DNA of 40,183 bases from a bacterium (GTDB lineage Bacteria > UBP14 > UBA6098). How positions within the stretch are numbered: position 1 is the stretch's first letter; each line of letters starts with the position of its first letter. Location: the NCBI GenBank assembly GCA_023145965.1, contig JAGLDC010000041.1:1-40183 (forward strand), given 5' to 3'. Positions 4,773-16,049 of the stretch are shown here, in pieces. The notes beneath the pieces are model-generated. The model was given only the letters and a program-made list of their open reading frames with translations. It was not told where the DNA came from and searched no databases. A program made the translations under genes and the position numbers.

Positions 4773-4801
4773 TTGTATATTTGATATCAAAGTAGTATCA
4801 T
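4773..4801 (+). promoter_or_regulatory. Promoter with operator-like palindrome for the TAC operon
   Basis: TTGTAT (4773-4778), a 17-base spacer and TATCAT (4796-4801) make a good sigma70-type promoter. A perfect 12-base palindrome TTTGATATCAAA (4780-4791) fills the spacer, where a ribbon-helix-helix protein could block polymerase. The second gene of this operon encodes such a domain, so autorepression is a reasonable inference. The predicted start is near 4808, almost at the first codon. Confidence 0.6.
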
Positions 4802-4809
4802 ATGACTGA

Positions 4810-5238
4810 GTGGGCAAGATGAATCTATTAATAGAAGAATTTAATAACATACTTAAAGCGTGTCCAAATTTTAGGAAACTTATACAGGATTGCCCGTATG
4901 AGATAATAGATTTAGCTCGTTTCCTCATTGATATTATAGATAGCGGCAGGCATGATGATTGCTTCGATCTAAATCCACTAATTGAGTTTATGGAGTATTT
5001 TTTTTCAGCGGTTTATAAACCAGGAAAACAAGGAAGCAAGGTTTCTATCTCGATTCCAAACAAAAAAGGAAATCTAACTGTTCATAGATGTCATAGTGCG
5101 AAATTGGAAACGAAAGTATACCAGATAAGCAAATATACGGGAAATTTCAGAATTAGATTTCAACAAATGATGGGATTCGATTTCGAGCAGTTTTTAAGAA
5201 TAGTTTTTGATGAATTAGAGAAAAGAAAAGGAGTATGA
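4810..5238 (+). CDS. Unrecognised 142-aa protein, candidate toxin of a HicB/SecB-like module
   Basis: I do not recognise this family. The N-terminal half (about 1-70) is predicted helical with alternating hydrophobics (EFNNILKACPNFRKLI, IIDLARFLIDIID). The middle (75-118) is more beta-like and basic (SKVSISIPNKKGNLTVHR, GNFRIRFQQM), and the C-terminus is a charged helix. It has no signal peptide or membrane segment and bears no resemblance to the short HicA dsRNA-binding-like fold. It lies one base before a HicB-like gene and heads an operon that ends in a SecB-like chaperone, the position a toxin often takes. The start may be GTG 4810 or ATG 4819; either is within about 10 bases of the predicted transcription start. 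The toxin role rests on context only. Confidence 0.7.
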   Translation: MGKMNLLIEEFNNILKACPNFRKLIQDCPYEIIDLARFLIDIIDSGRHDDCFDLNPLIEFMEYFFSAVYKPGKQGSKVSISIPNKKGNLTVHRCHSAKLETKVYQISKYTGNFRIRFQQMMGFDFEQFLRIVFDELEKRKGV

Positions 5239-5239
5239 A

Positions 5240-5791
5240 GTGTCGAAAATGATAACTCAGGAAGATCTGGATAGAACTGAGCGTATGCATAGGGAAGAGG
5301 TTGAAGAATACATGGGCTATGACTATCCGATAACGATTATGCAATACGAGGATTATTGGATGGCTACGATAGAAGAACTCCCCGGTTGCGACGGTTACGG
5401 CGATTCCCCGGATGAAGCGGTCGCGGATCTGAATGCCGACAAAAAGGACTGGTTCTTGATGTCCTTTATGAAAGGGCACAAACCTCCTAAACCCAAAAAG
5501 CAACAGGAAATAGTCAGACTCTTAGTCCGTATGGACGTAAGTTTGCATCTCAAATTGTCTGAGAAAGCCGTTCAACAGAACAGAAGCCTGAACTCGTTTA
5601 TCAACAATAGTCTTTGGAATTGCATAAATAATACTAATCGGGAATATAAGCTGAGAATGGAAGAACCGACAATACAAACGGTTATTGGAAAGAAGTATAC
5701 AGGTCGTAATATTTTTACTTTACCCGAATGCCATGAAAACAAAGGATTAGAGGAATATGGACAAAAAATCGCAGCAGCAGGTGGATATTAA
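5240..5791 (+). CDS. HicB-like antitoxin with RHH domain and C-terminal extension
   Basis: A 183-aa protein. Residues 28-86 form a HicB-type partial RNase H fold (YPITIMQYEDYWMATIEELP, then GCDGYGDSPDEAVADL). Residues 93-130 are a ribbon-helix-helix DNA-binding domain (RLLVRMDVSLHLKLSEKA, then NRSLNSFINNSLW). A tail of about 50 residues (131-183) follows that most HicB antitoxins lack. In characterised SecB-linked toxin-antitoxin systems the antitoxin carries a C-terminal chaperone-addiction segment, and this tail is in the right place for one. The start GTG 5240 is chosen because AAAAGGAG ends at 5233; ATG 5249 is the alternative. Its 3' end overlaps the SecB-like gene by 35 bases, which suggests coupled translation. 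Confidence 0.82.
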   Translation: MSKMITQEDLDRTERMHREEVEEYMGYDYPITIMQYEDYWMATIEELPGCDGYGDSPDEAVADLNADKKDWFLMSFMKGHKPPKPKKQQEIVRLLVRMDVSLHLKLSEKAVQQNRSLNSFINNSLWNCINNTNREYKLRMEEPTIQTVIGKKYTGRNIFTLPECHENKGLEEYGQKIAAAGGY

Positions 5792-6251
5792 AGAAGCAAC
5801 CGATAAGGTTTCACCGGAAGAATACCAGAAATTTATCAATCAACTTAAACTCGAAACAATTTTCTTATCGAGTATTAAGTTTAACAAAGTCGCAGATGCA
5901 CATCTTAGAGACCTTAGAGGTGCGACGATTGACCTTCCTAAACCTCAAGGTAGTTTTATTAATTCAAAAGATCCGCAAAGGGCGTTTGCGACTCTGACTT
6001 ACAATGCGACTATTGTCGATTCCGACGAAGAACTTTTAGAAGCCGAAATAGCTTATACAGCCGAATTCAGCTACGAGACTACCCAGTTCGATATATATAA
6101 TTTTACGCTATTCTTCGAATTCAGTTTGCTAAACATTTTACATCCTTATTTCAGAAGGACATTGGACCAGTTAATATCTGAATCCTATATGGGACATTTC
6201 ATAATGCCGCTTTTAAAAACGGTTTTTGAAAAATCAGAGGATAACGACTAA
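5757..6251 (+). CDS. SecB-like chaperone (TAC-type)
   Basis: A 164-aa protein resembling SecB. The diagnostic part is the C-terminal half: beta strands with ELLEAEIAYTAEFSYET (91-107) and then LLNILHPYFRRTLDQLISES (124-143) with a following PLLKTVFE. These align by eye with the SecB helix containing L-x-PY-x-R and its 'LPPxNF' region, although the last motif is degenerate. SecB normally holds preproteins unfolded for export. Solitary SecB-like proteins downstream of toxin-antitoxin pairs instead protect the antitoxin. Overlap with the HicB-like gene and lack of other export genes favour the latter. The N-terminal 20 residues are charged and poorly conserved. SD-like AGAGGA lies very close to ATG. 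Confidence 0.75.
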   Translation: MDKKSQQQVDIKEATDKVSPEEYQKFINQLKLETIFLSSIKFNKVADAHLRDLRGATIDLPKPQGSFINSKDPQRAFATLTYNATIVDSDEELLEAEIAYTAEFSYETTQFDIYNFTLFFEFSLLNILHPYFRRTLDQLISESYMGHFIMPLLKTVFEKSEDND

Positions 6252-6542: not shown

Positions 6543-7049
6543 TTATTTGGCTACCGCCATAATGTCTTGCATACATTTTCCATGGAACTTTACTATGCGC
6601 TCAACATAAAACGAGGTCTCGCGGGGAAGCCTGTCCTTTATTTCAGCGAAGGTCGAAGCACCGATCTCGGTCAATAATTTTTTTGCACGCGTGGGGCCGC
6701 AGTTGTAGCTTGCGAACGATAGAAGCAATCTTTCATGGAGATCGGGTATCTGCGAGAGACGATCCCAGCAGAAACGATCATACCAAACACCAGCCTCGAT
6801 GTTAGATTTTGGATCGAAGATATCTTCAGATAAGTGGTGAAGGTAGAGTTTTATATCTCGCCATGTGGCTGGCATGAGTTGCATCAGCCCGCATGCTCCA
6901 ACGCGCGAGACCGCGCGGACATCGAGGCCGCTTTCCGCAATCGATTGAGCAACAAACCATAAGTAGAAACTATCGTTTGCTTCGCATTCTTGAGGCCAAT
7001 AATTAATTGCCGATTCTCGAAAGAAATTATTAAACTTATTTTTTTGCAT
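6543..7049 (-). CDS. Lytic transglycosylase (SLT domain), phage lysis or entry enzyme
   Basis: A 168-aa protein consisting almost entirely of a goose-lysozyme-like SLT domain that cleaves peptidoglycan. The catalytic glutamate is E39 in AQSIAESGLDVRAVS, followed by the family GLMQLMPATW motif (54-63) and a C-terminal SFASYNCGP motif. No signal peptide or SAR segment is visible, so release would need the small membrane proteins encoded just upstream, or delivery within a particle. Start ATG 7049 is preferred over a TTG at 7082 because TAGGAA precedes it. It is the last gene of the cassette and is separated from the rest by about 230 bases carrying a repeat, so it could have its own expression. 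Confidence 0.85.
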   Translation of the reverse strand: MQKNKFNNFFRESAINYWPQECEANDSFYLWFVAQSIAESGLDVRAVSRVGACGLMQLMPATWRDIKLYLHHLSEDIFDPKSNIEAGVWYDRFCWDRLSQIPDLHERLLLSFASYNCGPTRAKKLLTEIGASTFAEIKDRLPRETSFYVERIVKFHGKCMQDIMAVAK

Positions 7050-7180
7050 TTCGGTTCCTATCGAATAACTAAATTGGATCAAATTAAGTTGCCTAATTGA
7101 GGATTTATGGGTTATAGGTTCTTACGGGAGATTTTGTATAAACCTTGATTACTGAGGTGGATTTGACACTCAGCGATTCT

Positions 7181-7251
7181 GTTATTTCGAGCGTAGCCAG
7201 GAATCTCTTATAATCAATGTGGGAGATTCTTGGCTACACTTTTTGAAATGA
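7181..7251. repeat. REP-like imperfect inverted repeat inside the lysis region
   Basis: GTAGCCAGGAATCTC (7193-7207) pairs with GAGATTCTTGGCTAC (7223-7237) with one G:T pair. The arms extend outward, GTTATTTCGA (7181-7190) against TTGAAATGAC (about 7242-7251). This has the look of a dispersed palindromic repeat found in intergenic spaces of environmental genomes. The remaining bases of the 7050-7283 gap show no gene. Confidence 0.6.
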
Positions 7252-7283
7252 CACTTTATGTCTAGGCGAGACACGGTTCGCTT

Positions 7284-7619
7284 CTACCTCGCCACTCCAG
7301 CTAGATTTTTCTGCATTATCTGGCTGGCGATCTCACGGTGTGCGAGAGATTTTGCATCGTCGGCATCGGGAAGGCCGCAGGCAGAGATTAGCCGATCTAC
7401 CGCTTCGTCTATCCACTCGCTCCAGTGAGCTGCAGGTGCGACAAGAAGCATCTCATCGGTGATTCGATCTGCTATCAGAGCAATCTCCTTGGCTCGGATA
7501 ATCCGCGTGGAGTTGCGATTGATCCAGGGCTTGAGGTATTTCCCGGCGAGAAAACCTATTGCAATGAACAATAAAGGGACTATCGCCTTAATGAGGATGG
7601 TTATAAGTATTTGTTCCAT
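7284..7619 (-). CDS. Small phage membrane protein, holin-like candidate
   Basis: A 111-aa protein with one N-terminal transmembrane segment (about residues 4-30, ILITILIKAIVPLLFIAIGF) followed by a short basic stretch and a soluble helical domain rich in Ala, Asp and Arg. The topology, cytoplasmic or periplasmic helical tail, and position directly upstream of a transglycosylase fit a holin or lysis-accessory protein, but I recognise no family. The start ATG is preceded by GGAGAT. It follows the 72-aa membrane protein gene by 8 bases. Confidence 0.65.
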   Translation of the reverse strand: MEQILITILIKAIVPLLFIAIGFLAGKYLKPWINRNSTRIIRAKEIALIADRITDEMLLVAPAAHWSEWIDEAVDRLISACGLPDADDAKSLAHREIASQIMQKNLAGVAR

Positions 7620-7627
7620 TTTATCTC

Positions 7628-7846
7628 CTATTTTTTTAGATTAATGTTGTTCTCAAGAATCAAATCTACTTTTGCCTCGATGCGTCCAACGGCCTCGGTT
7701 TGAGTTAAAATAATGTCGTCCATTCGGTTAATCCGGTTCGAAAGCTCGGCATAGGTTATGCCCCAGACTATTCCTATCAGGGCGATGATCACCGAGAGAC
7801 CGATTGGTGCAAGTCTCCAAAATATATTACGGTATTCGTCGGACAT
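7628..7846 (-). CDS. Short TM plus coiled-coil protein, XhlA/holin-like
   Basis: A 72-aa protein with a transmembrane segment (about 10-28, LAPIGLSVIIALIGIVWGI) and then a predicted coiled coil (residues 30-68, with SNRINRMDDIILTQTEAVGR). This order resembles haemolysin XhlA-type or spanin-like phage lysis proteins, though those often have the coiled coil first. The frame is open further upstream to 7897, but ATG 7846 is preceded by an ideal GGGGG-type RBS and avoids overlap with the previous gene. Membrane location is likely; the exact role is inferred. Confidence 0.65.
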   Translation of the reverse strand: MSDEYRNIFWRLAPIGLSVIIALIGIVWGITYAELSNRINRMDDIILTQTEAVGRIEAKVDLILENNINLKK

Positions 7847-7854
7847 GGTTCCCC

Positions 7855-8616
7855 CTAACGGGTAACATCCCAGCGAACGATGAAGCGGTTTCTCCATATG
7901 GTTATAACATCTCCTTCAGGGAAAGTTAATTGAATATCAGCAGCATAGCTTTTCGGAATAAGTGTCGTCTGCTCTTGACTTAGTTCGAGTCGTGCGTGCC
8001 CGCTAGTGCCTTCAACAATATCGAGAGTATCTACTATCACTGCAATAGAATCACTCTCGCGGGTGCGGGCAGTGAAAACAGCTTCGGCGTCGGTTATATC
8101 CACTGTATCTCCGCTTGCCCCCAGGATATAGATATCGACAGTCTTATTGTCTCCTCTATATGCAATTATTTGCCTCGAAGTTCCACCTGAGAAAGTAACT
8201 GCAAATTCATCTTCATCCATTGTTAGAAGGAAGGGAAGGATTGCCTTCGACTCCCATGAGGCTGTGCCGTGGGCGAGGGCAAGTGTTTCTGCAATCATAG
8301 ACCTAAATAAATTTGGATTAGCTGCAATAGGTATAGTAAATGCCGTGGTATCAACCAGAGAATCCTCCCAAAAGCCTGCCACGATTGCGGTTGCAAAGAT
8401 GATTGAATCGGGAAAAGCAAATGCGTAAGTTGCCGATCTTCCGATAGTATCCATAGATGTCCATCCCAAAAGAGTATCTCCTGAGGCTAATACTGCACAG
8501 AAAGCTGAATCCGCATATGCGCTTTGACCATCGGTGCCTACAAGATCGACAGTTATTGGATAAATGAAGCAAAGCGCTGCCGTTGTGATTATCAGTAAGG
8601 TTGCTAAATATTTCAT
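7855..8616 (-). CDS. Secreted phage-cassette protein with BppU-N-like C-terminal domain
   Basis: A 253-aa protein that starts with a Sec signal peptide (MKYLATLLIITTAALCFIYP, probable cleavage near residue 35). The C-terminal 100 residues contain a beta-rich domain with GDTVDITDAEAVFTART early and YAADIQLTFPEGDVITIWR near the end. These resemble the N-terminal domain of phage baseplate upper proteins (BppU_N/DUF2479-like), where a final 'dG...T...g.f.v..DvTr' motif is common; here it ends RFIVRWDVTR. A signal peptide on a particle component is unexpected. ATG 8616 is chosen for its GGAAGGAG RBS and overlaps the previous gene's stop by 4 bases. Confidence 0.7.
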   Translation of the reverse strand: MKYLATLLIITTAALCFIYPITVDLVGTDGQSAYADSAFCAVLASGDTLLGWTSMDTIGRSATYAFAFPDSIIFATAIVAGFWEDSLVDTTAFTIPIAANPNLFRSMIAETLALAHGTASWESKAILPFLLTMDEDEFAVTFSGGTSRQIIAYRGDNKTVDIYILGASGDTVDITDAEAVFTARTRESDSIAVIVDTLDIVEGTSGHARLELSQEQTTLIPKSYAADIQLTFPEGDVITIWRNRFIVRWDVTR

Positions 8617-9878
8617 CGTAATCTCCTTCCGGGAGCAATAATCCCCCATTTTAAAGCGACATGTGAAGCACCCGATTCCGGCCATGAGACTTCTGTATTG
8701 TATGGACTTCGCCAACCTATAACAGGAATTCCAGATTCGCTTCGGAACCACTTTCCTCGATTGTCCCATAGGGGAGCCGTTAGGCCGTAGGCTGTATTTA
8801 TACCGATCAACCTCGCACTATCTGCCTGAGCGACTTTGAGCGAATCTAACTCCGGATCGAATGACCAATAGTTTATTGGCATTCCAAGGTTGGTGGTTTC
8901 TGTTTCGCAATTAAATAGGATAAGGCCATCAGTTTGAATGAAATCGCAAGAATTGATAGCCTTCCCTGCATTTGAAATTATACAGTTTAGTAATTTTACT
9001 GCACCTCTATTGCCGCTCATGTTGATTGGATTCTCGACTGAATCGAAGGTGCAATTTGTAAATTGCACAAAAGGATTATTAGTCGAATAATAACTTGTGG
9101 TGATACCGAGTTGCGAACCAGTAAAAAGGCACTTATTGAACACATAGGACTGAGAAGGATACCGATATGCTAAAACAGCAATTGAATCGACGTAAAACGC
9201 ATCCTCATCGAAGAAACCCGCTATACCGCTATAACCACAGATACCGCCATAACCATAATACTCATTCTGAGAAGATATAAAAATGCCTGCTTCGAGTCCC
9301 TTAATGCAATAGTCGGTTTCTGCGGTCAAAATGGTATTAGAAACCCGTGCAAAGCTTGCGTTTAGATAAAGACAGAATTTTCCTGAATTTAGATAGCAAT
9401 CCTCGATAAGAAGCTGTGATGTTATGGCATATATTCCAACATCGAACGTTGAAAGCGAACAAGACTGAAACTTCGCGCTTCCCTTATCGCCCAGCGTAAT
9501 ACAATTCGCGGGGCTATTTATAATTTTGCCGTCGATTATGGTAACGAAGGCCTCGCCAATATTACCGCAATAGCTTCCGATTTGAATACAATTTCTTGTC
9601 GAATCCCCATCGATTGTCCACTTTGTGCTGTCAGGCCAAGCGAAAAGGAAGCATCCTTCGTGAATATTATTTGATAGACTGAATGTTTCGTTGAAAACTC
9701 CACAAGCAAAAGCGGTATCGTTTCCGCTCATTGCAACTGTAGCAGCGCCAAGTGTCGCGAAAGCTGAATCTGGGGAATTCCCTGGCCACGCGTCGTTGCC
9801 GAGAGATGAATGAATCCAGTATTGCCCTGGAATCAGTGCTGTAACCAGCAAAAAGAGAGCAAGGATTATTTTACCCAT
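8613..9878 (-). CDS. Secreted right-handed beta-helix protein
   Basis: A 421-aa protein with a Sec signal peptide (MGKIILALFLLVTALIPG) followed by a DUF1565-like opening (HSSLGNDAWPGNSPDSAFAT) that is typical of surface beta-helix proteins. Residues about 90-330 contain many pectate-lyase-type rungs, with repeated short patterns such as FTNCTFDS, IEDCYLNS and LLNCIIS. The family includes polysaccharide lyases, adhesins and phage tailspikes, so carbohydrate binding or cleavage is plausible, but I see no clear catalytic set. It lies within the phage cassette and overlaps both neighbours (13 and 4 bases), so it is translated as part of it. RBS GGAGAGG precedes the ATG. Confidence 0.78.
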   Translation of the reverse strand: MGKIILALFLLVTALIPGQYWIHSSLGNDAWPGNSPDSAFATLGAATVAMSGNDTAFACGVFNETFSLSNNIHEGCFLFAWPDSTKWTIDGDSTRNCIQIGSYCGNIGEAFVTIIDGKIINSPANCITLGDKGSAKFQSCSLSTFDVGIYAITSQLLIEDCYLNSGKFCLYLNASFARVSNTILTAETDYCIKGLEAGIFISSQNEYYGYGGICGYSGIAGFFDEDAFYVDSIAVLAYRYPSQSYVFNKCLFTGSQLGITTSYYSTNNPFVQFTNCTFDSVENPINMSGNRGAVKLLNCIISNAGKAINSCDFIQTDGLILFNCETETTNLGMPINYWSFDPELDSLKVAQADSARLIGINTAYGLTAPLWDNRGKWFRSESGIPVIGWRSPYNTEVSWPESGASHVALKWGIIAPGRRLR

Positions 9879-10174
9879 TTAAACCACCTCTCCAATTCAG
9901 AACAAAACGCAAAAAACCTTCGCGTTGAATCCGGCGGCACACAATAGCCAATTTCTTGTAGAAGTATTGTATCGCTTTCAGCAAGGTAGATTATTCCCGC
10001 AGATCTGATTAAACCATTTGCGGAAGTATCTTCCTCGATAACAACAGTCGAATCTACAACCGATATACCTGTCGAGTCGGGAGCGATAAGTGTATGTGCA
10101 GAATCGGCTGACACTTCAACCCAAGCTGCAAATCCTGCAAGCGAGATTAGCATCATTATTTCTAGGAATTTCAT
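9866..10174 (-). CDS. Small secreted phage-cassette protein of unknown function
   Basis: A 102-aa protein beginning with a probable signal peptide (MKFLEIMMLISLAGFAAWVE, cleavage near 24). The mature part is acidic and rich in Ser, Thr, Asp and Val (for example DSTGISVVDSTVVIEEDTS), which suggests an extended or beta structure, and ends in an aromatic/basic helix (FCSELERWFKWVK). I recognise no family. It overlaps the beta-helix gene by 13 bases and lies 8 bases after the 153-aa gene, so it is tightly tied to the operon. AGGAG precedes the ATG. Confidence 0.65.
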   Translation of the reverse strand: MKFLEIMMLISLAGFAAWVEVSADSAHTLIAPDSTGISVVDSTVVIEEDTSANGLIRSAGIIYLAESDTILLQEIGYCVPPDSTRRFFAFCSELERWFKWVK

Positions 10175-10182
10175 ACTATCTC

Positions 10183-10644
10183 CTAACTAGCATCGGTTGT
10201 GATGTTGAATGCTATGTAAAAACCCTCTACAGGGCGTTCGATTCCAAGCCACGAAGCCAAGTAAGCGCCATCGGGCAAGGTTTCAACCTCGGCCGATTCA
10301 GTAAAACCGGGGAAAAGGTCGCCGAATTCAATATTCGAAAGTTCGAAATTATCGAATTCTTCTTTGAATTTTTCAACCACGGCTAATTTGATTTCTGCGA
10401 GGTTCTCTTGCGGATTGCGTCCTCTAAAGAGAATTACAGTTAAACCCTCACAAAAATTCTCTTGCAAGCCCAATTCCGCTGAAACAAGGCCAGTCATCGC
10501 GATTGGGTATTCGCCTGCGGCTATTTCTCTGATCCGCTTGAATCCGCGAACGGAATTCCGAAGCAATAGCTTATGTTCTTCCTGAAGTTTGGCAAACGAT
10601 GCGACAATTGAGTCGATCGCGCTATCGAAAGTCGTTTTTCCCAT
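10183..10644 (-). CDS. Phage head-completion or tail-terminator-like protein
   Basis: A 153-aa soluble protein with alpha/beta character. Residues 1-45 are helical, with LQEEHKLLLRNSVRGFKRIR, and 45-153 contain strands (GLTVILFRGRN, FYIAFNIT) that fit a minor tail or neck completion fold. The family is not certain. Position two genes after the major capsid protein is that of a completion/tail-terminator protein in many phages. RBS AGAGGA precedes ATG. If the cassette truly lacks a tail, this protein would close the portal vertex instead. Confidence 0.6.
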   Translation of the reverse strand: MGKTTFDSAIDSIVASFAKLQEEHKLLLRNSVRGFKRIREIAAGEYPIAMTGLVSAELGLQENFCEGLTVILFRGRNPQENLAEIKLAVVEKFKEEFDNFELSNIEFGDLFPGFTESAEVETLPDGAYLASWLGIERPVEGFYIAFNITTDAS

Positions 10645-10676
10645 GCTTTTCCTCTTTTCTTAATTGCTTTTATTAA

Positions 10677-11048
10677 TCATCTAATTAACACAACGCCCGA
10701 TTTCTCCAAACCCTCGAATTCTATAGCAGGTAATGCGGTTTGGATAGCACTCTCGAATTTATTTGAATACTGGGTTGCCTTAAGTGCATATATACCTCCG
10801 CCGGTCGAATTAGCATTGAAAACAAGGTGTAGATTAAGGAAAATCGCCGGTTCTCGGAGAACTTCCGGGTTTTTAATTAAAGATAGTATCTCACCATCAT
10901 ACAGTTCGTTATAGGCCTTGCGTATTCGAGAAGCAAGGATACCTTTCACTGCTGTTCGGTTATCGATTCTATCAAGAGATTCGAGCGATTCCGATTCGAA
11001 ATCGTATAGATCGTTGATGTCAAATAATACATTTGTTTCCCAATTCAT
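10677..11048 (-). CDS. Phage head-tail connector-like protein
   Basis: A 123-aa acidic, helical protein directly after the capsid gene. Its features, an N-terminal acidic segment, a central helix (VKGILASRIRKAYNELYDG), AIFLNLHLVFNAN, and a hydrophobic C-terminus, are similar in size and order to gp6/gp15-type connector proteins, but no motif is decisive. RBS AGGAGACATC precedes ATG 11048. It probably binds the portal in the assembled head. Confidence 0.55.
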   Translation of the reverse strand: MNWETNVLFDINDLYDFESESLESLDRIDNRTAVKGILASRIRKAYNELYDGEILSLIKNPEVLREPAIFLNLHLVFNANSTGGGIYALKATQYSNKFESAIQTALPAIEFEGLEKSGVVLIR

Positions 11049-11106
11049 GATGTCTCCTGATTTGTTATGGCCATCGATCGATTTTTTGCGTCTCTGGAGG
11101 GTAATT

Positions 11107-11148
11107 TTTCGGGGGGCATGAAATGCAATCTTTCCTCGCCCCCCGAAA
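11107..11148. repeat. G6/C6 hairpin downstream of the capsid gene
   Basis: TTTCGGGGGGC (11107-11117) pairs exactly with GCCCCCCGAAA (11138-11148) over a 20-base loop. No T-run follows in either direction. It lies in the 223-base gap between the capsid and connector genes, which otherwise shows no gene, and may stabilise or process the capsid mRNA. Confidence 0.6.
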
Positions 11149-11271
11149 TCATCGGTGTGCTAGATTTAGATTTTTTATAAATATTGTCTCTATTTCCAGC
11201 TCACCGTTAGGCTGTGAATTTATAACAGCTCTCAGCGCCCATGAAGAGCGCATTTAATCGAAGTGAATACA

Positions 11272-12405
11272 CTAACTCGTTGCAAGGTTCTTTATGAGGC
11301 CGTGTGCATAAAGAGCATTGTGAACCTCTAGTGTGTATTCGCCTATTATTCTTCTTGCGATGTAGTCCGCAGCCTCAGAAGGGGTTGCGGGAAGATCACT
11401 AAAGGCGCGGTCACGCATGGGAACAAGAGCAAGTTTTGTTGAATCTAGAAGTGCAATCTTATCTTGAGGGAAAGCGGTATCTATGATGATACGCTCCACC
11501 ATACCAAGCGGAAGATCGCCAACAAATTCATAAACAGCTCCACCTGTGCGCTCATCTGACCAGGTTGTCCTAACAGTAGGTGTCGAACCCGAGGCAGTGT
11601 TGAAAGCCGAGATAGCGCGTGCCTGAAAGGTATTGCAGACCAGTATATTAGGTCTTCCACCATCGGCAGCGATCTTTTCAATGAGATCGTTGAGATCGTC
11701 TGCGCTAATGGCTCCAGCCTCGGCATCGATTACATTTCCATCAGCTTTATCGAGGAAATAGAGTAATCCACCCATGGTTCTCGGAATCGAAGCGTCGGAT
11801 GTATTAACGTATCTCCTGCCATAGATAACTGCCGCATTCATCTCGATCTGTAGCAATTCTAGGTGATGTTTAATGTGAAAGTCCACAAGGTCCTCTATAG
11901 CAAGGTGTTCAGAAGCTACAGCAGATTTAGAGACCTTAGCCGTGCGGTCGAAAATCTGTGAATAGTTAAATTCTGAAGATGGTTCGGTAACCGCGTCATA
12001 GCCAGGATCGCTTCCTTCTGAACGCGGCCGCGAGATGACCCTAACTACCGTATCGTCATCCATACCAACAGCGCTGGTTCCACCGTATGCTCGGGATACG
12101 GTGAGAGTCGCGCCATCAATAGATGTTACACGGATGATCTCATCGTAATTGTCGAAAGCGAGAATATCTCCAGCAGCAAACTTCGAGCCGGTATCGACAT
12201 CGATCTCAGTGTCGGTTGAGAGAATTGCGCCATCCAAGACATCGATGGTCGGTTCGATAACATCCTCGAGCCATTCGTGTTTGTAGTTTTTGCTTTTCCC
12301 TCGAATCGGAATTATCGAGAGTAAGTTGTGTTGTCCTTTAGATAGAATCTCGAAAGTTTCACCTAAGTCGCGTTTAAGATTCGAGAAATCGTAAGATGTT
12401 TCCAT
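11272..12405 (-). CDS. Major capsid protein, SU10-like HK97 fold
   Basis: A 377-aa protein resembling the SU10_MCP family, an HK97-fold shell protein. Recognisable points are an N-terminal LKRDLGETFEILSK helix region, a beta-rich insert with GSKFAAGDILAFDN and VTVSRAYGG-like strands (about 70-120), TAKVSKSAVASEHLA (about 160), the spine helix with IEMNAAVIYGRRYVN, and the RTMGGLLYFLDK segment. It has no obvious N-terminal delta domain, consistent with the separate scaffold gene upstream. ATG 12405 is preferred over 12456 because AAAGGA precedes it. The gene is bracketed by G-rich hairpins at 11107-11148 and 12461-12491. Confidence 0.82.
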   Translation of the reverse strand: METSYDFSNLKRDLGETFEILSKGQHNLLSIIPIRGKSKNYKHEWLEDVIEPTIDVLDGAILSTDTEIDVDTGSKFAAGDILAFDNYDEIIRVTSIDGATLTVSRAYGGTSAVGMDDDTVVRVISRPRSEGSDPGYDAVTEPSSEFNYSQIFDRTAKVSKSAVASEHLAIEDLVDFHIKHHLELLQIEMNAAVIYGRRYVNTSDASIPRTMGGLLYFLDKADGNVIDAEAGAISADDLNDLIEKIAADGGRPNILVCNTFQARAISAFNTASGSTPTVRTTWSDERTGGAVYEFVGDLPLGMVERIIIDTAFPQDKIALLDSTKLALVPMRDRAFSDLPATPSEAADYIARRIIGEYTLEVHNALYAHGLIKNLATS

Positions 12406-12460
12406 TGTGTTTCCTTTCTTTTTGTTGGTTTTTAATTCATCATCGTTAAGCTTCATTCTC

Positions 12461-12491
12461 GGGGGGCGTCAGAATTTTCGTGACGCCTCCC
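12461..12491. repeat. G6 hairpin upstream of the capsid gene
   Basis: GGGGGGCGTCA (12461-12471) pairs with TGACGCCTCCC (12481-12491) with one G:T pair and a 9-base loop. The 16 bases GGGGGCGTCAGAATTT (12462-12477) recur exactly at 27342-27357, at the edge of the large branched element there. It separates scaffold and capsid cistrons. Confidence 0.65.
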
Positions 12492-12503
12492 TTAGCTTTC
12501 ACA

Positions 12504-12992
12504 TTAGCGTAAGGCTTTCAGCATGCTTAATGTATCACCAGCGGCCCTAGCAAGAGTCAATTCATCGCCCTTTGAGCGCGAGAATCCTGCATTATCGACC
12601 CTTGGTGGTGGTAACATTTCTTGGAACAGCTCAGGAAAACCATCCTTAAGCTGTGATATTACATCGATCGCAATCTTCGATGGATCTTCATCGGATTCGT
12701 CGAATTGAGCTATCTTAAAAGCAGCATCTAGTCTTTCGGGGCGAATATTCGCCCGCATTGCCTCGATACAGAAATTATCTCGAAGGCGTAGGTTTTCGAG
12801 TTCGGCGATCTTCGTCGATAGGTTTTCTTGTTCGGATTCCATCTTGGTTGTTTCTTCGAGTTTTTCTCTATATTCCCTTGCTTCTGCGTTAGCTTTTCGT
12901 TTAGCTATGATGAGTTTTTTTATGTCTTCAGGGTTAGCCTGCAATTGCTCGACAAGCGCATCATCATTGATTGTGTTGGTATTATCGTTCAT
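12504..12992 (-). CDS. Phage scaffolding protein
   Basis: A 162-aa, highly charged, helical protein with a long predicted coiled coil (about residues 25-75, AKRKANAEAREYREKLEETT and onward) and a disordered-to-helical C-terminus ending in TLSMLKALR. This resembles minor structural GP20/scaffold proteins, which guide capsid assembly and then leave. Position between portal and major capsid genes is the standard one. The start is preceded by AGAGGT, and its upstream neighbour, portal, ends 4 bases away. Confidence 0.8.
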   Translation of the reverse strand: MNDNTNTINDDALVEQLQANPEDIKKLIIAKRKANAEAREYREKLEETTKMESEQENLSTKIAELENLRLRDNFCIEAMRANIRPERLDAAFKIAQFDESDEDPSKIAIDVISQLKDGFPELFQEMLPPPRVDNAGFSRSKGDELTLARAAGDTLSMLKALR

Positions 12993-12996
12993 AGTT

Positions 12997-14403
12997 TTAC
13001 CTCTTTGCTAAGGATTTGGTTTCATTGTGGTTTTCCAACCAGAAGGCGTTATCTCGGTATTTTGCCTCGGCCTCTTCTCGTGTCATCTGGAAACGTATCA
13101 TCATGTAATCGATCGGTGTGGCCATGCCATTTTCTATAAGGAATTTCCATTCGGCGGTTTCATCTTCGGTGGACTGAGGAAGCCTGACCTCGTGAACTGT
13201 CACCGAGAGGCCGGTCTGTGGTCGAAAAAGAATTCCCTTAAAGGGGTGAGCATTAGGAAGAGAATTTGCATGTGTATTCCAAACCTTCTTAATCACCCTG
13301 AAAAGCAACTCTTCAGAATCCTCGTAAAATGGCACCGCATTTTGCCTATCCTCGAAAAGCGCGAGGTTTTCCATTACCAATGCAAAACCGCTCTTTTGGC
13401 TTCCGCTTATGGAATAATTCGCCGAACTTATGTGATACGTATTTGAAAGCCGCATAATCGCCTCGCGTATTGCTCCGAGACACTCTGTTATTGCGGGATT
13501 CGGTGAGACGAATTTGAAATCCGGTGCCCCTCCGCCAACATGGCTTAGAGGAATTGATATTGGTTTTCCGGGCGCAACTACTATTTTTTCCTTGCCGTCA
13601 TAACCTATAAGCACTGGCACACTGAATGACTGCATTTTGATAAGATGATTCAACTGAACGAGCTTAAGGTTGATAGCATCCTGCACAATTGTCAAATCCT
13701 CGCCGGCATCGACAAAATAACTCGAGAGCGGCAGGGTCTCTGCGAAACGCACGAAGGGTAATTCCCCGTAAGGATTGACGTTATCAGGATTCTCCTGTAT
13801 GCGGAGGATAACACCATCAGCGGTGAAGCGGCGATAACTCGAGCTGTCCCAATAATGATAGACGAGTGCGTCCGGCGCGAGTGTCTCTGTGCGCGGGCGG
13901 CTATATATAATCGCCTCTGCCTCGGTTGGGTCTTCGGGATCTTGAATAACATCTATTTGATCCGGCGTGAGGACATCGAGACGAATACACTTATTGCGAA
14001 AAGAGGGTTTTACCAAAACAGTCCGACAAAGTTTCACCATGCGATGAACTGTTTTTATCGTTGCGTCGTAATTTGAGTTAGACATAAGCCAATCCCATAA
14101 GGCTTTTTCTTCAGGTAAAACATCGCCTTCGGTGCTTACAAGCATCCGTGAAGCACCGCTTCTATATACCAGAGCGGTTCCATCGACTATTGTTTTGATC
14201 ACATTAACAAATTCTGGTTCGAGAGCTAACATAGAAGCATCACTATATTTTTCCTTGAGAAGCTCTAGCAAATAGGGTATCTGACGGTCGTTATAGTAGT
14301 CTATCCGTTTGGCCATCTCGCTTTTAAAGCTCCTGCGGACTGCTAGTTTTGCCGAGAGAAGGATTCTCTCTACCCATTCTTCGGCACGCGATTTTGGAAA
14401 CAT
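12997..14403 (-). CDS. Phage portal protein (SPP1 gp6-like)
   Basis: A 468-aa portal-family protein. Recognisable are the N-terminal AKRIDYYNDRQIPYLLELL segment, the PEFVNVIKTIVDGTALVYRS strand/helix, the clip-to-wing region VLTPDQIDVIQDPEDP, NPYGELPFVRFAE (near 225), the long stem helix with DLTIVQDAINLKLVQLNHLI, and a C-terminal EDETAEWKFLIENGMATPID helix region. It forms the dodecameric ring through which DNA is packaged and contacts the terminase. Length is normal for the family. AAAGGAGAACC gives a very strong RBS. Confidence 0.88.
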   Translation of the reverse strand: MFPKSRAEEWVERILLSAKLAVRRSFKSEMAKRIDYYNDRQIPYLLELLKEKYSDASMLALEPEFVNVIKTIVDGTALVYRSGASRMLVSTEGDVLPEEKALWDWLMSNSNYDATIKTVHRMVKLCRTVLVKPSFRNKCIRLDVLTPDQIDVIQDPEDPTEAEAIIYSRPRTETLAPDALVYHYWDSSSYRRFTADGVILRIQENPDNVNPYGELPFVRFAETLPLSSYFVDAGEDLTIVQDAINLKLVQLNHLIKMQSFSVPVLIGYDGKEKIVVAPGKPISIPLSHVGGGAPDFKFVSPNPAITECLGAIREAIMRLSNTYHISSANYSISGSQKSGFALVMENLALFEDRQNAVPFYEDSEELLFRVIKKVWNTHANSLPNAHPFKGILFRPQTGLSVTVHEVRLPQSTEDETAEWKFLIENGMATPIDYMMIRFQMTREEAEAKYRDNAFWLENHNETKSLAKR

Positions 14404-14552
14404 GGTTCTCCTTTCGTTCGATTTATCGATTTTCTAATATTCTATAAAAACAAAGGATCAACCGTTGGTTGACCCTCATTGTTGATTCCAAATTTTATGG
14501 AAAAATGTTAGGCGAATATCGGGGTGGAACAGCCCCCCCTTTTCAATATTTT

Positions 14553-16049
14553 TTACCCAAACCTCCATTCTGCAGTTTTAAGAGGCGTGACGAAATCTAT
14601 CATGTAACGAAGGGCATCCATTGTGTGATCGTGAACGTTGTCTTTAAGGGGAAGCTCTCCGATTGGCTTGCCATTTTTATCCATAGGGTAAGTATAACTC
14701 TGGAAATCGTCGATAAGGCGCTTGCAACGTGGGTCGATTTCCAGATCGACCTGTCCACTTGCCGAAAGTAACTTTGCGCGCACCGCGTTAACCCCTTGAA
14801 GTATCGGAGAACGGACGACAGCCGTCCTGGTAATGCCCATACCGGTTATCGAAGAAAGCGAAGATTCCCCTCCGGCCTCTTGCCTCGATTGAAGACCTTC
14901 AGCACCTGAGATTATCCTCTCTACTCGCGAATACGGCACTCTCGCTTGGAAACTTCGCCCAGGAAGCGGTACCGCATCGCCAATAATTGCTGCAGCAATA
15001 CTTTCCAATCTAAGATGCTGTTCGACAAGCTCATCGAAGATCACCCACCTACCCTTTGGCGATAATTGTGCCCATATTACAGCCGATGGGTGAGTCCAGC
15101 CAAAGTCTATACCAATGAACACAGGCCAATCATTCTTTATTTGCCAATGTTTTCCGAGGATATTTATCTGCGGAGAAAAATCTTCGTAAACACAAAAACC
15201 ATCGTCCTCGAAACTAGCCTCGAACTGTTGGCGAAAATAACGCGAGTCCATCTGTCTTCGAGCACGTTCTATCTCAACATTATTTATTAATGGATTCTCG
15301 CTCGTTTTTGCTGTAAAAAATTCCGCATCAGCATCCCCAGCCCAACTTTGGACAAGATTCCAAACCCAGTTTTTTCCGCGTGGTGTTGTTGATAAAAATC
15401 CCGGCCCGCCTGTCGATATTGTTCTTGCGACAAGAACCTCCCACACCCTTTTAGGAAGCTGTGCCGCCTCATCCAGGTGGAACCAATCGAGAGTGAGGCC
15501 CATAAGCCGATCAGGGTTATCTGCGCTGCGAAAAAGTATCTTACTTCCGTTGTCGAGCAACATATCTCCAATAGAGGCGTTCCACTTTGCAATTCTGCCT
15601 TCGGCGAGTTCGGCATACTGCGGAACGAGGACATCGCGAGCCATACCTGTCGTCGGTGCCACTGCAGCTCCGGTTGTTGGAAGTAGCAGCGCTCTTTTAA
15701 GGCCTTTCAGCGCACCACTGAAAGTTTTGCCGCTGCGCACACCTCCTATAAAGGCAGTGAATCGAGCCTTCGACTCGACAAATTTCTCTTGACATGGGAA
15801 AAGTTTGGGCGATATTACACATTTATGTGCATTATTTACAAATTCAGGTATCTCACCTATTTTTTTGAGAAGATCGGTGGCATCTTTTAATTCTTTAACT
15901 TTAAAATCGGGATTAGCGATTATTTTATCTATTCTTTCAATCACTGCGTTTTCTGGGTTTATGTGGTTTTGCTCTGTTGTGGGCACTTCGTTTTTTAAGG
16001 TAAATTTAAGAGCAGAACTATTTTTCTTAGGTTTTATTTTTTCGGACAT
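14553..16049 (-). CDS. Phage terminase large subunit
   Basis: A 498-aa packaging motor and nuclease. Walker A is GGVRSGKT (about residue 102-109), Walker B with the catalytic Glu is LDWFHLDEAAQ, and the coupling motif is FLSTTPRGKNW. The RNase H-like nuclease is marked by FIGIDFGWTHPSAVIW and the late HDHTMDALRYMID acidic motif. About 80 residues before the ATPase (with KVKELKDATDLLKK) are an extra helical N-terminus. No separate small terminase is present upstream, where the next gene is divergent hypF. AAAGGAATAT precedes the ATG. The portal start is 149 bases downstream. Confidence 0.93.
   Translation of the reverse strand: MSEKIKPKKNSSALKFTLKNEVPTTEQNHINPENAVIERIDKIIANPDFKVKELKDATDLLKKIGEIPEFVNNAHKCVISPKLFPCQEKFVESKARFTAFIGGVRSGKTFSGALKGLKRALLLPTTGAAVAPTTGMARDVLVPQYAELAEGRIAKWNASIGDMLLDNGSKILFRSADNPDRLMGLTLDWFHLDEAAQLPKRVWEVLVARTISTGGPGFLSTTPRGKNWVWNLVQSWAGDADAEFFTAKTSENPLINNVEIERARRQMDSRYFRQQFEASFEDDGFCVYEDFSPQINILGKHWQIKNDWPVFIGIDFGWTHPSAVIWAQLSPKGRWVIFDELVEQHLRLESIAAAIIGDAVPLPGRSFQARVPYSRVERIISGAEGLQSRQEAGGESSLSSITGMGITRTAVVRSPILQGVNAVRAKLLSASGQVDLEIDPRCKRLIDDFQSYTYPMDKNGKPIGELPLKDNVHDHTMDALRYMIDFVTPLKTAEWRFG

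Follow-up and report, generated by a model that had tools for sequence, protein, structure and literature searches.

We conclude that the three-gene operon at positions 4819 to 6251 of the window (the whole stretch of 40,183 nucleotides that was analyzed) is probably a HicAB-SecB-type toxin-antitoxin-chaperone (TAC) system in which the first gene encodes a highly derived HicA-like toxin. The initial annotation had put the operon forward as a candidate new TAC; the TAC arrangement is well supported by the comparisons described below, and it is less probable that gene 1 represents a new class of toxin.

The three genes form a conserved unit behind one promoter

ORF calling in the window returned three tightly packed ORFs on the + strand, the second and third overlapping by 35 bases, with one promoter ahead of them. 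These ORFs, together with the conservation of the promoter in related loci, bear out the tight spacing, shared promoter and overlap originally described. Gene 1, the probable toxin gene (4819 to 5238, + strand), could start at GTG 4810, giving 142 aa, or at ATG 4819, giving 139 aa; the latter appears to be the better choice and agrees with the ATG starts in its relatives. It is followed by an ORF spanning 5240/5249 to 5791, in which the HicB antitoxin gene is placed at 5249 to 5791 (+ strand), and by the gene for a SecB-like TAC chaperone at 5757 to 6251 (+ strand).

A check for co-occurrence found gene 1 conserved with the other two genes in two further genomes of the phylum, G013 (locus L009) and G009 (locus L011), where the gene order is the same and hicB and secB overlap as well. 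Across the three loci, identity is 35–46% for gene 1, 52–79% for gene 2 and 39–78% for gene 3. The chaperone is present in 5 and gene 1 in 3 of the 17 genomes of the phylum, and convincing scores for gene 1 were confined to 3 of 386 genomes, always inside the trio operon; other matches of its profile among the 386 (E = 1e-4 to 0.04) were attributed to chance, as they mostly involved part of the profile or long open frames and had no accompanying operon. The neighborhoods of the trio are unrelated: it lies after serA and beside phage genes in the window and after fusA in G013, and in G009 it is flanked by a gene for a secreted protein on one side and a sigma54-type regulator on the other. The module is missing from the congeners G015 and G016, which carry other genes downstream of serA. 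The trio is thus a conserved unit found at different genome sites. Searches for gene 1 in phages, plasmids and viral contigs, and for the chaperone in plasmids and viral contigs, gave no convincing match, and an Rfam scan returned a single sub-threshold match on the other strand.

A phage-like block adjoins the TAC in the window (6543 to 16049, − strand) and includes genes for an endolysin (6543 to 7082), a major head protein, a scaffold, a portal and a terminase large subunit. No integrase was recognized among its listed ORFs, and a hypF-like gene follows it. The block may represent either a prophage that has become defective or an element of the gene-transfer type.

The promoter (4773 to 4801, + strand) consists of a −35-like TTGTAT at 4773–4778, whose first base is the coordinate at which the initial annotation began the feature, and, after 17 nt, a −10-like TATCAT at 4796–4801. 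Its end lies 8 nt from GTG 4810 and 17 nt from ATG 4819. The same layout is found at the equivalent place in L009 and L011 (TTGNNN-16-TATCAT) and in L047 (TTGACA-17-TATCAT), and in the three trio operons the TTGNNN-16/17-TATCAT element ends 12–19 nt ahead of the ATG. A general sigma-70 scan did not list the promoter at 4773 to 4801. Several other HicA TACs have a similar layout, and in L046, L075 and L076 just 3 nt separate the −10 element from the start codon; given this spacing, the toxin mRNAs might have almost no leader.

Inside the promoter is a putative operator, TGATATCA-AAG-TAGTATCATA (4782 to 4802, + strand), made up of two TRRTATCA boxes at 11-bp spacing. The pattern TRRTATCA-N3-TRRTATCAT is common to the three trio operons (at 1843 in L009 and 4846 in L011), and a near copy, TGATATCA-N4-TGTTATCA, precedes the true hicA-hicB-secB operon in L047. 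We found no further operator copy in ~290 kb of loci, and in 10 whole genomes the three trio promoters, one per genome, are the sole sites of the 20-base pattern; both promoter and operator are absent from seven relatives without the trio. Taken singly, the repeat in the window is not significant, so that the case for an operator is made by its conservation and uniqueness and not by the significance of the repeat within the window. The operator is likely bound by the ribbon-helix-helix domain of HicB.

Gene 1 is probably a diverged HicA

The initial annotation held that no HicA-like gene is present and that an unrelated protein takes its position, which is probably wrong. The product of gene 1 appears to comprise an N-terminal helical extension, a HicA-like stretch of ~90 aa toward the C-terminus and a C-terminal segment, so that about half of the protein (the N-terminal ~50 aa and the C-terminal ~25 aa) falls outside any HicA domain. 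In searches of 24,736 Pfam families, the window protein had no significant family match, and neither it nor its L009 relative matched HicA on its own. The top family for the G009 homologue (L011), the most diverged member of the three-member gene 1 family, was HicA_toxin, with an E-value of 0.0024 for the full length and 0.0012 for the C-terminal part. A consensus of the family likewise gave HicA_toxin as its top Pfam match (E = 0.0025; none among nine shuffled or reversed controls), although the consensus shares residues with the G009 homologue and does not constitute an independent test. The only PHROG match of the L011 protein was a toxin family that is also matched by true TAC HicA proteins. 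Since a HicB partner leads one to expect HicA beforehand, we gave the Pfam result more weight than its nominal E-value.

Other comparisons were less favorable. The best gene 1 member reached 19.4 bits against a PF07927 cut-off of 27, and the window member had no match. When the three-sequence gene 1 profile was aligned to HicA with hhalign, p was about 0.02–0.03 (shuffles, 4–6%; global mode, 1.5%), barely above shuffles, and against the TAC HicA group p was 0.27; the TAC HicA group itself aligned to canonical HicA with Prob 95.8%. When HicA sequences from within the phylum were used to build an HMM, gene 1 scored no better than shuffles. HicA has a dsRBD-like alpha-beta3-alpha fold; an AlphaFold model of gene 1 from a two-sequence alignment was poor (pLDDT 47) and gave no useful fold match. 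The remaining matches appear to be chance: the proteasome and SRP-receptor matches of gene 1 in phmmer searches of the PDB, the PCNA and dystrophin matches of the family profile, and a DUF1091 match of the window protein (E = 0.09).

The catalytic histidine of HicA sits in beta-2 (PMC7180214). In the aligned register, gene 1 has GS-K in place of the HicA GSH, followed by a beta-3 T[VI]H-x-x-H and a helix, and a lysine replaces the histidine in all three members (QGSKV, TRKII and GSKII). Since the catalytic histidine is absent and the score is below the cut-off, gene 1 lacks defining features of HicA, and we therefore do not class it as a HicA member; it is probably a HicA descendant in the HicA position.

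Our chaperone searches also provided operons for comparison. True hicA-hicB-secB operons with the same order and the same HicB architecture are found in other phyla (L046, L047, L050, L075, L076 and L077), where HicA keeps GSH or KSH, and one occurs within the phylum (L004), its HicA having SSH. Several of these HicA proteins are as weak in Pfam as gene 1 (L047, E = 0.018; L050 and L004, no match), which is why TAC-linked HicA would seem to be a diverged group in general. HicA is abundant in the phylum as a whole, with at least one match above the Pfam cut-off in 15 of 17 genomes and 8–10 matches in several.

We weighed these results against the proposal that the operon is a TAC with a new toxin family unrelated to HicA, working with HicB and a SecB-like chaperone. 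Such a toxin would account for the window protein having no significant family match, for the weak profile-profile comparison with HicA, for the missing catalytic histidine and for the half of the protein that lies outside a HicA domain, but it would leave to coincidence that the top Pfam family of both the G009 homologue and the consensus is the very one predicted by the HicB partner, that PHROG agrees, and that position, order and operator are the same as for hicA in L047. We consider this proposal unlikely. Descent of gene 1 from HicA, with extensions gained at both ends, is supported without being proven, and we regard it as quite likely.

The toxin body differs from the rest of the operon in its divergence

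Comparison of the window with L009 revealed a step in DNA identity inside gene 1. From the upstream region to ~5170 the two sequences are about 50% identical (40–68%), and from ~5170 to ~6200 about 85% (mostly 70–95%), identity stepping up to ~85–90% at ~5170. The last 22 codons of gene 1 (5171 to 5238, + strand; GFDFEQFLR..FDELE.RKGV) lie past this boundary and go with the conserved hicB-secB block. The step suggests a recombination event that replaced the toxin body and left the last 22 codons, the antitoxin and the chaperone in place. Rapid divergence of the toxin body is a possible alternative to exchange, the boundary being drawn from two sequences.

We can also envisage, tentatively, that HicB and the SecB-like chaperone restrain either a non-HicA toxin or a HicA with a moved active site, which has lost the beta-2 histidine and acquired an HxxH at the end of beta-3. 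In this view, recombination would exchange the body of the toxin, and the C-terminal segment, the antitoxin and the chaperone would be conserved.

Synonymous difference between the window and L009 is 0.77 for gene 1, 0.40 for hicB and 0.58 for secB, and synonymous change exceeds non-synonymous change in all three genes. Gene 1 diverges faster than its hicB and secB-like partners. This faster divergence and the replacement of histidine by lysine in all three members could be taken to mean that gene 1 is a HicA that has decayed or been repurposed and is not toxic, and that the operon now serves as an antitoxin-chaperone regulator. A comparable case could be L078 (G387), where no HicA-like ORF was found immediately ahead of a HicB-SecB pair, possibly an antitoxin-chaperone pair without a toxin. 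However, gene 1 has kept an open frame under purifying selection in three lineages (pS of 0.70–0.77 versus pN of 0.35–0.46), T[VI]H-x-x-H and FR-x-RF are retained across the family, and promoter and gene order are co-inherited with it, all of which makes a non-toxic gene 1 improbable.

The antitoxin has a long tail and the chaperone is SecB-like

The product of gene 2 was correctly described at the outset as an antitoxin with a HicB fold, a ribbon-helix-helix domain and a long tail. Its gene is placed after the toxin gene, it scores 25.6 bits with PF05534, above the cut-off of 21, its PHROG matches are to HicB/Arc families, and in tblastn it matches the annotated HicB of Thermus plasmids over residues 15–122 (E = 1e-8). 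An N-terminal HicB fold is followed by the ribbon-helix-helix at residues ~81–121 and the tail at residues ~124–180; the conserved HicB match stops at about residue 122 of 180, leaving a C-terminal tail of ~57 residues. Tails of 35–75 aa are present on every HicB of the compared operons. Since TAC antitoxin tails carry a chaperone-addiction sequence (PMC5105189), the tail of the window HicB is a candidate chaperone-addiction region. In CmdA and other TAC antitoxins, the C-terminus tends to be LAA (PMC11618068). The C-terminal residue is A, S or T in 9 of 11 HicB proteins of these operons, two of the nine ending in AA. The L004 and L011 proteins terminate in SAA and the window HicB in IAAAGGY, which is no exact fit to LAA.

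The SecB-like nature of the third gene product also held up when examined by HMM and structure. A profile of five family members searched against the PDB had as its top match Rv1957 (5mtw_C), the TAC chaperone of M. tuberculosis (E = 0.0012), and with a low-confidence AlphaFold model, again from a two-sequence alignment, Foldseek ranked Rv1957 at the top, and its 19 best matches consisted entirely of SecB and Rv1957 structures. Four of the five family members have weak Pfam SecB matches; the window protein scores 13.9 bits with PF02556, below the cut-off of 26. Other TAC chaperones are likewise missed by PF02556 (PMC4257090). The Pfam SecB model found no stand-alone SecB in the phylum, which is weak evidence because that model barely detects this branch of chaperones; outside Proteobacteria, genomes with TAC chaperones usually have no separate SecB (PMC4257090). 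That the genes are chance neighbors, gene 3 not being SecB-like or the trio being no unit, would suit the sub-threshold Pfam SecB match of the window protein (E = 0.051) and is extremely improbable given Rv1957 and SecB in both the PDB profile and fold searches and the occurrence of trio and operator at three loci.

SecB-like genes were also observed in other settings. They lie behind HigB/RelE-like and HTH genes in L052, L053, L055 and L059, which are putative HigBA-type TACs, and the SecB profile found a further HigBA-like-SecB operon (L080). In three genomes (L048, L049 and L051), a SecB-like gene directly follows a UvrD/Rep-type helicase-like gene, with no adjoining toxin or antitoxin.

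Proposed mechanism and comparison with known systems

We propose that the product of gene 1, presumably an RNase or RNA binder, would block translation and that the N-terminal domain of HicB would neutralize it, while the ribbon-helix-helix domain would bind the TGATATCA-type operator within the promoter and so repress the operon. Owing to its long C-terminal tail, HicB would depend on the SecB-like protein, which is made alongside it from the overlapping gene. If stress, a block in export or a phage protein titrated the chaperone away, HicB would be expected to misfold or be degraded, freeing the toxin.

With this operon, the range of HicAB-SecB TACs comes to include a small uncultured phylum. 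The antitoxin-chaperone pair of the operon has been retained as the toxin diverged or was exchanged, in keeping with chaperone addiction as a portable module. If the gene 1 toxin works without the canonical histidine, it offers a useful test of what HicA catalysis requires; if gene 1 is not a HicA, HicB antitoxins can pair with other toxins.

Because HicAB-SecB TACs are already known and tested, the operon in the window is not a new kind of system. In that of Methylomonas methanica MC09 (Mmet-TAC), SecB dependence was demonstrated and the addiction sequence lies in the HicB C-terminus (PMC5105189). The two share a tailed HicB, a SecB-like chaperone and a toxin gene in the HicA position, but the window toxin is barely recognizable as HicA, has no beta-2 catalytic histidine and carries N- and C-terminal extensions, and the window chaperone is far from Pfam SecB. 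The loss of the catalytic histidine and the apparently sharp mosaic boundary inside the toxin gene are what seem unusual about the window TAC. With the M. tuberculosis TAC (HigB1-HigA1-Rv1957), the operon shares its operon logic, an antitoxin tail and a chaperone whose nearest solved relative is Rv1957, whereas its toxin and antitoxin are HicAB-like and those of M. tuberculosis are HigBA. Gene order and HicB domain layout resemble those of hicAB class 4, in which HicB has a C-terminal ribbon-helix-helix (PMC10865869); the class 4 toxin is much closer to canonical HicA, and the class has no chaperone, the main text of that paper being silent on SecB and chaperones. In the anti-phage CmdTAC system (PMC11618068), a SecB-like chaperone similarly guards a labile antitoxin, although its toxin, CmdT, is an ADP-ribosyltransferase that acts on mRNA and its antitoxin, CmdA, does not belong to HicB.
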